64,000 nucleotides of DNA from Nitrospinota bacterium (GTDB taxonomy: Bacteria; Nitrospinota; Nitrospinia; Nitrospinales; VA-1): assembly GCA_027619975.1 (NCBI GenBank), contig JAQCGX010000002.1:62001-126000 (forward strand), read 5' to 3'. Below, piece after piece: positions 47,415 through 51,838 of the stretch; position 1 is the stretch's first letter; the number at the start of each line of letters is the position of its first letter. The notes beneath the pieces were generated by a model that ran no database searches, was not told the DNA's origin, and saw only the letters and a program-made list of their open reading frames with translations. A program made the position numbers and the translations under genes.

Positions 47415-47666
47415 ATGGAAAATGAAAAGGAAACCATTGGTACCATTCAAGCCCGGTTGGAGATTCTTTACAAGGGTGTGATCAGCGAAGAGAACTCGGT
47501 GCAGTATTACGAGACCCTCATTGAAAAAACTTCCGGGGACTCTGAGGAAGAACTGGGCAAGCGGCGCATGTATGCAGACCTCAGGCAGGAAGAAATGAAG
47601 CATGTGGAAACGTTCCGCGTTCTCATCAAACACTGGGAGGAAATGTTATCAAAACTCAAAGGGTGA
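47415..47666 (+). CDS. Small ferritin-like (rubrerythrin-like) protein
   Basis: An 83-residue helical protein. Iron-ligand-type residues appear as EENSVQYYETL in the first helix and EEMKHVETF, an E-x2-H motif, in the second. Only one half of the four-helix bundle of ferritin-like proteins is encoded, so it presumably dimerises. It precedes the Fur-box and FTR1 genes, which fits an iron-linked role, though function is inferred from fold. Confidence 0.75.
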   Translation: MENEKETIGTIQARLEILYKGVISEENSVQYYETLIEKTSGDSEEELGKRRMYADLRQEEMKHVETFRVLIKHWEEMLSKLKG

Positions 47667-47893: not shown

Positions 47894-47922
47894 TTGATAA
47901 CTATTCTCATTTTTATTTATAT
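47894..47922 (+). promoter_or_regulatory. Fur-box-like operator over a promoter
   Basis: GATAACTATTCTCATTTTT at 47896-47914 agrees with the 19-bp Fur consensus at about 13 positions; a TTATCATT half-site lies just upstream (about 47878). TTGATA (47894-47899) and TATATG (about 47918-47923) at 18-nt spacing form a plausible promoter, so iron-loaded Fur would block it. The downstream operon is for iron uptake, which supports the reading. Confidence 0.6.
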
Positions 47923-48140: not shown

Positions 48141-50276
48141 ATGATAAAGAAATCCCTCCCCACCCTGGTTTTGAGTGTTTTTTTTACCGCCCTCGTTATA
48201 TCTTCCATTCACGCGCAAGCGGCTACGGAATCTCTGGAAAGCAAAGTCAAAAAGATCGTCATGATGATGAATATCGTCGGTGCTGAGTATGAAGCGGGAA
48301 TCGTCGATGGAAAAATCGCCATCGCTGCTGAATATGAAGAAAGCAAAGTCTTTTTAGAACAAGCGGAAGGTCGTTTTAAACGGCTTCCAGCTCCCACGGC
48401 AGGTTCTACGGATTCCATTGATGGTATTTTTGCCGATCTCGCTATAAAAATAAATTCAAAGGTAGATTCCTCTGAAGTGCTCTTACTTGTCAATAGTATC
48501 AATGCGGGCATTAAGAAAGCCTATGACATCAAAATCAGTCAGACGCCTTCCACCCCGGTATCGCTTGCCAATGGTAAAGCCATTTATGAAAGCAAGTGCG
48601 CAGTGTGCCACGGCCTAACAGGACAAGGCGATGGCCCGATTGCCGCGCAATTCAATCCGACTCCTGCGATTCTTGCCAACCCCAAGCTCACAGGCGATGA
48701 CAATACCGTTGCTTACGACAATTTCCAGGTGATCAACGTGGGTATCGCCAACACGGCCATGATTGGCTGGGCGGATTTTCTCTCGGAAAAAGACCTTTGG
48801 GACGTCACGTATTATGTCCGTAGTTTTTCCAATGCCAACGTCAAACTGCCTTTGATCATCGCAGGGCTGGCGACTGAGGAGACTGCGGCAGGGGACGATG
48901 GCTCCACACATGCGGCGACCGTCATTGCCGCGTCTCGTAAATTGCTCGATACCAGTCTGGAAATTTTTAAAAAGGGTGAAATACAAGAAGCGGCGGACAC
49001 AGCAATCGATGCCTATCTCACCTACGAGGGTGTTGAAGCGGCACTGCTCAGCAAACGCAAGGAATTGGGACTTCGGCTGGAGTCGGGCTTTAGCCGCTTG
49101 CAGGCGGAGATCAAGCGCAAGGCTGATTTACCGCATGTGGAAAAAATTCATGCCAGTATCCATGCGGATCTTTCCAAGGCTCTGGATACTCTCCAGGAAA
49201 AAATCAGTTTTTCAGGGATGTTCATTCAATCGTTCTCAATTATCGTCCGCGAAGGATTTGAAGCGATCCTGATCATCGCCGCCTTGATTGCGTTTTTAAT
49301 CAAGTCACGCAATCAGGACAAGTTGAAATCCATCTATTCCGGTGTTTTCCTGGGAATCGCAGGAAGCTTCCTGACCGCCTACATTGTCCGCGAAGTCATG
49401 CATATAAATGCATCCAGCCAGGAGTTGTTAGAGGGCTGGATCATGATTGTGGCGGTGGTCTTTCTATTTTGGGTCAGTTACTGGTTGGTTTCTAAAATTG
49501 AAGCCGAGAAATGGCAGTCTTATATCACCAAAAAAATGAAGACGGCGGTTTCAACGGGCAGTATTTTTGCTTTAGGCAGTGTGGCCTTTTTGTCCGTTTA
49601 CCGGGAAGGGTTTGAAACCGTTCTTTTTTACCAGGCTCTTTATTTGTATGCCGGTGAAGGTACGGCAGGCATCGTCCCCGGATTTATTGTGGGATGCGCT
49701 GTTTTGGGTCTTGTTTATTACCTGATAAACAAAGCCGGGGTGAAAATTCCCATCAAATGGTTTTTTGCCTTCACCAGCATTTTTCTTTACTACATGGCAT
49801 TTACATTTATGGGAAAAGGCTTGCACCGCTTACAGATCGGGCAGGCAATTCCCATCACGCAGGCCGATTTCGCACCTCATATTTCCTGGCTGGGCATGTA
49901 CCCCACCTGGGAAACTTTCATTGGGCAGGCAATTCTCGTTTTGGCTTATGTTGTTGCGCTGGTGTATACGTTCGGGATCAAACCGGAAGTGGAAAACGAA
50001 CAGCTCAAAAAAGAGACCTCTCATATTCAAAATAACATTTCCGCAGTGCACGATCTGGTGGAACATATTTCTCATCATGCCAAACGCTGTGAAATCTTTC
50101 TGAAGGACACCAAGGATCAGGATTTGAAGGAACTGTCCGGACACCTGAAGGAAATCGACGAAAAAATCCATGAGCTTTTTGATCATGTTTCATTTGTAGA
50201 GAACAGGCTTCAGGATGAATTTGAAAAGCTGGGTCAGAGCGCCATGCCCGTTGAAGAAAAGAAAGGCTTGTCTTGA
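48141..50276 (+). CDS. Cytochrome c-FTR1 iron permease fusion with a helical His/Cys tail
   Basis: A 711-residue protein. Signal peptide (residues 1-26); periplasmic cytochrome c domain with CAVCH at 153-157 and a likely Met ligand in [10 protein letters not shown] (Met207); then an FTR1-family permease with two REGFE motifs at 370-374 and 488-492, the iron-binding sites of Ftr1. About seven transmembrane helices lie between 370 and 615. The last ~85 residues (625-697) form a charged helical tail with [14 protein letters not shown], homologous to the next protein's tail. The cytochrome may oxidise or re-reduce iron during uptake, as with other cytochrome-FTR1 fusions. Its stop overlaps the next gene by 4 nt. 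Confidence 0.9.
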
Positions 50277-51838
50277 AAATTCGGTCATTTAAAAATACCC
50301 GGAATTTTCATAAATGGATCGGGCTGGTTTGCGCGGTGTTCTTCATCATTCTGTCCCTGTCAGGTTTCATCCTCATGCATTACGAAAGCTTTGGCTTGAA
50401 CAAGGTTGTCGTTAGCGGCACATTCCTTCCAGATAAATACTTTCAAGTTGCCAGTTCCAGAAGAAACATCCATACCATCACTGCAACACCAAACGGTTCT
50501 ATTTACGTGGGAACTGATCATGGTCTCTACCGTTCCCAGGATAAGGGGAATTCGTGGAATGAACTTGAACAGGGATTATTTCATAAAATTATCCGCGTAT
50601 TGACCGTGGACCCGGTACAAAGTGGCGTTCTATATGCCGGAACTCCAGGAGGAATTTTTAAAACAGAGGATGGCGGCGATCATTGGACGGAATGGTTCGA
50701 CGCCTCCAGCGGACTGACCAACGGAGACGTGCACGATATTGTCATCCACCCTGAAGACTCGTACAAATTATTTGCGGCGACTCAAGGAGGGCTTTATTTT
50801 TCGGAAGATGGAGGCGAGTCCTGGGAAATTTTATTTGGTGGCGGAAATGAGGGAAAAGAAATTTCTGTGCAGATGATCCGCATCTCTGCTGTCGATTCCG
50901 AAACGATCTACATAAGTACCGCTAACGGAATGTACCGGAGCTTGAACGGTGGGAAGACGTGGGAACCTGTCTGGGAAAATAAGTTTGCTGATGTCCGCAG
51001 TATGATCTCTCTTAAAACAGATCCTGAGTTTATTTATATTGGAACCGATGCCGGACTGTTCAAATCTTTCAATCAGGGCCGTAACTGGGTGAAGGACAAA
51101 AATAAAAACATCAACCATGTGTCTTCCATTCTTGTGAACCCGACAAACATTGCCAAACTGACCATTTCAACAGGAGAAAATATTCTTCTTTCTGCTGATG
51201 GCGGTGATTCTTGGCAGCCGTTAGATTTTAGTTCAAACGAAAAGTCTGGAAGCTTATTTTCGTCTAGCCCACCTTTACTGACCCGGATCTATCGAACCCA
51301 TTCCCCTTCCCCTGTCTGGATTGCCGGAACCACTTCCGGCCTGTTTTTATCCCAGGATGGCGGCAAACATTGGCGCGAACAGGAGTTGTCTAATTCTGCA
51401 AAACAACCTGACGAAAGAAAAATGGATTTGGTCAAACTCTTCACTGAAATCCATACCGGAAGGTTTTTCGGCTCCTATTTCGTCCTTCTGGTGGATTTGG
51501 CCACATTGGGCCTTATCCTGCTTGTCATTTCAGGGATTTGGGTGGGCATCGCCCGCAACAAAATCAAGAGAGGGAAAAAAGATCGGTCTGCCGGAGAATT
51601 GGAAACAGAGTTATTGATAAACGTTCAGGAAACCGCTGACGATCTTTCTGCTGAGACTAACGAGATCCACGATATGATCGAGCATATCAGCAATCATTTA
51701 GAAAAGTGTAAAACGGTTTATATGTCGAAAGAGAAAAAAGAGATCGAAGAGATCGATCGCCACATCACGACGTTAGATAAAAAGATGCACAATCTGATAC
51801 AGCGCATCGGCGAGTTTGAAAAATTTTCACAAAATTGA
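50273..51838 (+). CDS. Membrane-anchored seven-bladed BNR/Asp-box beta-propeller protein
   Basis: A 521-residue protein beginning with TTG inside the FTR1 stop (50273-50276). Transmembrane helix 1 at residues 14-34 with a [13 protein letters not shown]...LSGF segment as in PepSY-associated proteins; then about seven Asp-box repeats of S-x-D-x-G-x-x-W type (residues 88, 131, 177, 223, 265, 307, 360) making a sortilin/YCF48-like propeller in the periplasm; transmembrane helix 2 at 402-424; cytoplasmic tail 445-521. The tail carries [14 protein letters not shown] (His466-Cys479), matching the FTR1 tail residue for residue. Likely an accessory of the iron permease. Confidence 0.82.

Follow-up and report, generated by a model that had tools for sequence, protein, structure and literature searches.

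The window analysed here is a 64 kb stretch of a Nitrospinota genome, and it contains an operon of two membrane proteins with similar C-terminal tails (Table 1). The first gene encodes a fusion in which a cytochrome c domain precedes an FTR1 iron permease part. Its membership of the FTR1 family follows from a PF03239 match above the curated cut-off and from the presence of both REG(F/L)E motifs, with R370-E371-G372-F373-E374 and R488-E489-G490 invariant among 29 proteins. The fusion scores 114.8 bits with the EfeU equivalog model NF041756, below the NCBIfam equivalog threshold of 255 bits, and a Foldseek search with its predicted model gave no match below E 0.001.

The second gene starts with a TTG codon that overlaps the FTR1 stop, which lies inside the four shared bases (TTGA). 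Its product belongs to the PepSY_TM family (PF03929), the match being split around a BNR/Ycf48-type propeller, and its AlphaFold2 model consists of a helix, the propeller, a second helix and a helical tail. Foldseek searches with this model return mainly propellers, including GH74 and Ycf48, and His13 and His394 are conserved at the ends of the two transmembrane (TM) helices. The replacement of the usual PepSY domain by a beta-propeller within a PepSY_TM pair is an unusual architecture, which is kept in about 40 Nitrospinota genomes.

Table 1. Positions of the operon, its tails and the upstream site, numbered from the first nucleotide of the window.
Feature	Position	Strand	Evidence
Fur-box-like site ahead of the FTR1 gene, GATAACTATTCTCATTTTT	47896..47914	+	13/19 Fur consensus matches
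711-aa fusion of a cytochrome c domain and an FTR1 iron permease	48141..50276	+	PF03239 95.6 bits (cut-off 25.3); Cytochrom_C 40.1 bits (cut-off 21.3)
Tail of the FTR1 fusion (aa 615-701), two helices joined by a turn at 655-659	49983..50243	+	39 distinct tails aligned; AlphaFold2
FTR1 tail, first motif, aa 637-650 (His637, Asp638, Glu641, His642, His646, Cys650)	50049..50090	+	Motif match, conservation
FTR1 tail, second motif, aa 668-677 (His668, Asp673, Lys675, His677)	50142..50171	+	Conservation; absent from the preliminary description
PepSY_TM protein with BNR-type propeller between two TM helices, 521 aa	50273..51838	+	PF03929 38.3 bits (cut-off 28.8); Sortilin-Vps10/BNR; AlphaFold2; Foldseek
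Tail of the propeller protein (aa 444-521)	51602..51835	+	Alignment with FTR1 tails; AlphaFold2 helix 444-520, low confidence
Propeller tail, first motif, aa 466-479	51668..51709	+	Motif match, alignment
Propeller tail, second motif, aa 497-506 (His497, Asp502, Lys504, His506)	51761..51790	+	Conservation, alignment

Upstream of the FTR1 gene, the score of the Fur-box-like site, counted against a Fur consensus, is reached in 7.5% of shuffles, and the sites found upstream of FTR1 in nine relatives score 14-16/19, with shuffle fractions of 0-0.035. Together, such sites suggest that the operon may be regulated by iron. An 83-aa reading frame in the same upstream region (47415-47666, + strand) gives a weak match to EncB-type ferritin-like encapsulin cargo (E 0.02, far below the cut-off), and is possibly another iron protein or a product of chance.

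In a preliminary description of this DNA, a motif HD..EHIS.H...C was reported at His637-Cys650 of the FTR1 fusion and at His466-Cys479 of the propeller protein; it is found at both places, exactly once per protein, and the looser pattern H[DE]..EHI has no further match in any of the six frames of the window. The pattern common to both tails is H-D-x2-E-H-I-x2-H-x3-C, followed in the second helix by H-x4-D-x-K-x-H. The same description held that these otherwise unrelated membrane proteins share a C-terminal domain of about 70 residues, and the alignments bear this out. Local alignment of the whole tails scores 121, compared with no more than 72 in any of 5000 shuffles, and comparison of a profile of 39 FTR1 tails with a profile of 32 propeller tails gives a probability of 97% (E 3e-11). 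When the 14-residue motif is left out, the local score is 63 (shuffle mean 31) and none of 2000 shuffles scores as high, so the resemblance goes beyond a shared 14-mer or coiled-coil composition. The two tails are homologous copies of one domain of about 70 aa. A recent duplication is ruled out by the DNA of the motif, with only 26 of 42 nucleotides identical between the genes.

The view that the tail is not part of either parent family also holds, as it gives no match over the cut-off to any curated family of Pfam or NCBIfam and tail-less FTR1 homologues occur at the same locus. The PDB returns only generic coiled-coil matches to the tail, and no description of the domain was found among the open-licence papers that the literature searches returned; the host systems are known and the shared module appears to be undescribed within the databases and literature searched. 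A third gene with the tail, which had been proposed as a check, is absent from the window's own genome, where the next-best matches (E 0.09 and 0.25) fall on HPt-type- and leucine-rich-repeat-type-looking reading frames, rejected as chance matches; further carriers exist in other genomes.

Among the 77 Nitrospinota genomes searched, 52 have the tail, and all tail-only matches in this phylum fall on FTR1 or PepSY proteins. Both tails are present in 37 genomes, and the propeller protein is encoded by 40, the additional three being G067, G013 and G020. Absence of the tail from homologous operons, named in that description as a refuting result, is not seen in these 40 genomes, all of which have a tailed FTR1. 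A contig end cuts the propeller gene of G067 and G013, while that of G005 lies in two pieces far apart, perhaps an effect of assembly. The G020 propeller protein (L142, 605-1939, - strand) ends just after the second TM helix and has no tail, next to a tailed FTR1; either the partner has lost its tail or the sequence is in error. Seven further genomes (G009, G068, G044, G038, G040, G037 and G050) have a syntenic FTR1 without the tail, and the propeller protein is absent from all seven. The FTR1 frame of G009, G068 and G044 ends about where the tail would begin; other members of their genera keep the tail, and the sister species of these three keep both the tail and the propeller protein. In another seven genomes (G010, G017, G024, G060, G062, G064 and G056), FTR1 has the tail and no propeller protein is encoded. 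The numbers of FTR1 proteins with and without the tail are 40 and 0 when the propeller protein is present and 7 and 7 when it is absent (Fisher 2e-5, phylogeny being ignored). Since FTR1 can have the tail where its partner is missing, pairing of the two tails cannot be the sole role of the domain. In the genus of G040 and G037 (L127 and L132), the tail-less FTR1 fusion seems to be split into two consecutive genes, one for an N-terminal helical part and one for the permease part.

The sampling covered Nitrospinota and parts of one other phylum, further phyla being reached through a degenerate-pattern scan only. Profile searches with the tail alone recover the domain and also find it on carriers beyond this pair: it occurs on FTR1 proteins without a propeller protein, on small PepSY proteins without FTR1, and as a stand-alone protein beside feoB. 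In family f9, which belongs to the same class, the tail is carried by a PepSY protein of about 210 aa with two TM helices and no propeller, adjoined by an FMN-binding protein and a porin; FTR1 was not found in this family. FTR1 permeases of about 490 aa have the tail in a 'Deltaproteobacteria' MAG (L184) and the lineage to which it belongs, and their neighbours are Fur, or P19 and a Fer4_5 protein. Another tailed PepSY protein lies in a fur-feoB-dtxR/feoA-PepSY-porin-FMN_bind cluster (L240), and stand-alone tail proteins of about 70-90 aa adjoin feoB in seven genomes (L203, L205, L206, L207, L208, L236 and L237), with feoB at these loci and FeoB, Fur and DtxR at L240 named by eye from sequence.

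Outside Nitrospinota, 19 of the 21 matches lie in iron-import clusters (11 FTR1, 7 stand-alone and 1 PepSY), and because the searches used only the tail, this iron context is an independent result. The other two (G553 and G631; E 5e-4 and 8e-4) are the weakest of the class search and were set aside as coiled-coil-like noise. When the profiles of the five carrier groups are compared pairwise, all ten pairs reach probabilities of 95-99.5%. The domain is shared, and it is linked to iron-import loci, namely FTR1/P19, PepSY/FMN and feoAB clusters, in two lineages. In a tree of the tails, rows cluster by carrier, stand-alone copies form two groups and long branches meet; the columns are too few to order the carriers or to settle the deep forks. 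One FTR1 gene (L241 in G508, 781-2043) has its tail shifted to a different frame or broken by a stop codon right after the permease, and is either a broken gene or an assembly error. A porin-like protein recurs next to the tail-bearing proteins, at feoB as well as PepSY/FMN loci (L207, L236, L237, L088-L091 and L240), and is perhaps an outer-membrane iron route.

Residue conservation was assessed in an alignment of 39 distinct FTR1 tails and 32 propeller tails (71 sequences), outside of which stand the divergent propeller tails of G032, G029 and G023. The His residues of columns 23, 32 and 57 are invariant, and Glu27, His28, Cys36, Asp62 and His66 are nearly so. In an alignment of 35 proteins, His497 and Asp502 of the propeller tail are invariant and Lys504 nearly so. 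Equivalents of His642, His646, Cys650, His668 and Asp673 are kept in the propeller tails of G032 and G029, and those of His637, Glu641 and His677 are lost; the G023 tail lacks the same three and also the Cys. Across the five carrier groups, His646, His668 and Asp673 are the most conserved positions, being nearly invariant. The Cys is changed in only two aligned FTR1 tails (Ser in G024, Ala in G056), both of partnerless proteins, and is absent from every small-PepSY and stand-alone copy, which weakens the case for a metal site centred on Cys. The label of a His/Cys tail given earlier is apt for the conserved His and less so for the Cys, the least general ligand, and His/Asp(/Cys) hairpin is a better name. 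Four FTR1 tails (L033, L036, L052 and L013) have His in place of Asp673, and three of their four propeller partners have an extra His two residues after the His668 equivalent; most cases belong to one family, and the extra His possibly compensates for the change.

In the AlphaFold2 model of the FTR1 fusion, whose confidence here is moderate to low, the last TM helix runs on into the tail (helix 590-654) and is followed by a turn at 655-659 and a return helix at 660-701. For the propeller tail, the model has a single long helix of low confidence, with a dip at 482-484, so that a hairpin in this protein is proposed by homology. Positive charge flanks the two hydrophobic segments of the propeller protein on their outer sides, a pattern that would place both of its termini in the cytosol. 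The N-terminus of the FTR1 fusion should be periplasmic because a c-type heme motif is found there, and yeast Ftr1 has seven TM segments and an inside C-terminus (PMC11817551). From the charge pattern, the heme motif and the Ftr1 topology, both tails should lie in the cytosol.

The tail has an amphipathic heptad pattern, and on helical wheels its conserved residues occupy two edges of the hydrophobic face, one with His642, His646 and His668 (Cys650 being in the core) and the other with His637, Glu641, Asp673 and His677. Among the stand-alone copies, L203, L205 and L206 keep the first edge without the Cys, L208 and L236 keep the second, L237 keeps both, and L207 keeps neither completely; this retention of edges suggests that the residues may be metal ligands. 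In a crude hairpin model, the cross-helix distances are marginal for a site formed by a single hairpin, so a site with ligands from two hairpins appears as likely.

The explanation that we prefer, with a probability of about one half, is that both tails represent a single undescribed domain, which folds as a helical hairpin in the cytosol and acts together with iron importers of the inner membrane. The hairpin would be a cytosolic extension of the last TM helix, and its conserved residues would bind iron as it leaves the permease, the tail being a candidate iron binder by its conservation and genomic context. Hairpins may pair with themselves where FTR1 is alone, or the FTR1 tail with the PepSY tail as in this operon, which would keep the permease and its redox partner together during iron reduction or handover; the free copies of the domain encoded next to FeoB might have a similar receiving or coupling role. 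Such coupling and reduction have precedents in the tail-dependent Ftr1-Fet3 interaction of yeast (PMC11817551) and in the iron reduction by PepSY-like VciB (PMC8238504, PMC12004947). Pairing of the two tails is not obligatory, because FTR1 proteins have the tail in the other lineage too, and in seven Nitrospinota genomes that lack the propeller protein, and the variation of single ligand positions among tails speaks against the explanation. A more general proposal, with the odds somewhat against it, is that one small cytosolic hairpin, fused to the transporter, fused to a redox partner or free, serves both FTR1 and FeoB importers by binding iron leaving the membrane, as an undescribed bacterial iron-receiving module.

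The tails might instead be metal-free interaction helices that tie importer subunits together, or the stand-alone copy to FeoB, with His and Asp engaged in hydrogen-bond and salt-bridge networks. The heptad pattern, the restriction of PDB relatives to generic coiled coils, the truncation of FTR1 tails where the propeller protein is missing and the pairing of yeast Ftr1 and Fet3, which requires their cytoplasmic tails (PMC11817551), are consistent with this. However, near-invariance of His646, His668 and Asp673, and of the Cys in two carrier groups, would be uncommon in a plain coiled coil, a metal role agrees with the strict iron context, and FTR1 tails persist without a partner, so that a purely structural function seems rather unlikely. 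Chance resemblance of two unrelated amphipathic helices, to which weak matches from generic coiled-coil families and the two noise matches outside iron loci might point, is barely credible: it is contradicted by the profile comparisons and by the iron context of the tail-only searches, as well as by the shuffles and by co-registered conserved residues in 71 sequences.

Two other readings keep a chemical or regulatory role for the hairpin. A four-helix bundle of hairpins could bind heme b or another redox cofactor through its His residues, with electrons reducing iron at the cytosolic mouth; the presence of several invariant His on amphipathic helices and the nearby redox partners (the cytochrome c domain, PepSY, FMN_bind and Fer4_5) agree with this, but Asp673 matches the His residues in conservation and the other His have acidic residues alongside, for which non-heme iron is the better fit, and a heme site is improbable. 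It is more doubtful still that the hairpin acts as a sensor of cytosolic iron that restrains the importer, much as proposed for FeoC (PMC8749426): its cytosolic position and the copies beside feoB would suit a sensor or gate, but there is no regulatory domain, and the idea overlaps with iron binding.

The fate of iron on the cytosolic side of bacterial importers is poorly known. One unnamed domain occurring with FTR1, PepSY redox proteins and FeoB would be a testable candidate for a receiver or coupler, whose small soluble form could be studied by itself. The tail would also be of use as a marker of iron-uptake loci in Nitrospinota, a phylum with important marine nitrite oxidisers.

Several known systems resemble parts of this arrangement. 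The HxxxE, HxxxH and HxxxxD spacings of the tail resemble the ligand spacing of hemerythrin HHE domains, but the tail has no hemerythrin profile match, its motifs overlap, and it is predicted to have two helices, unlike the four-helix hemerythrin monomer. FeoC, a proposed iron sensor whose role has been termed elusive (PMC8749426), is likewise small, presumably cytoplasmic and encoded next to feoAB; the stand-alone proteins, in contrast, are helical hairpins with conserved His/Asp, have no FeoC family among their Pfam/NCBIfam matches, and share their domain with FTR1 and PepSY proteins. In yeast Fet3-Ftr1, a permease and its redox partner also interact through cytoplasmic C-terminal tails (PMC11817551), as is proposed for the pair described here; the yeast tails are short and unrelated (RRGH and YGMM), whereas the same domain is found on both proteins here, so that the likeness is one of analogy and not of homology.

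The propeller protein shares with PepSY-like electron-transfer proteins (PF03929), among which VciB reduces ferric iron and promotes Fe(II) transport (PMC8238504, PMC12004947), two PepSY_TM-matching TM helices, conserved terminal His and iron-linked loci; the described proteins have three TM helices (PMC8238504), while here two flank a BNR propeller and are followed by the hairpin tail. The FTR1 fusion has the FTR1 core and REGFE-type motifs of FTR1/EfeU permeases (including the FetMP, P19-cFtr1 and FtrABCD systems), and P19 and a Fer4_5 membrane protein adjoin the tailed permeases of the other lineage. It differs from them in its hairpin, which lies outside the FTR1 model, comes after a permease already fused to cytochrome c, and has a second copy on the PepSY-propeller protein.
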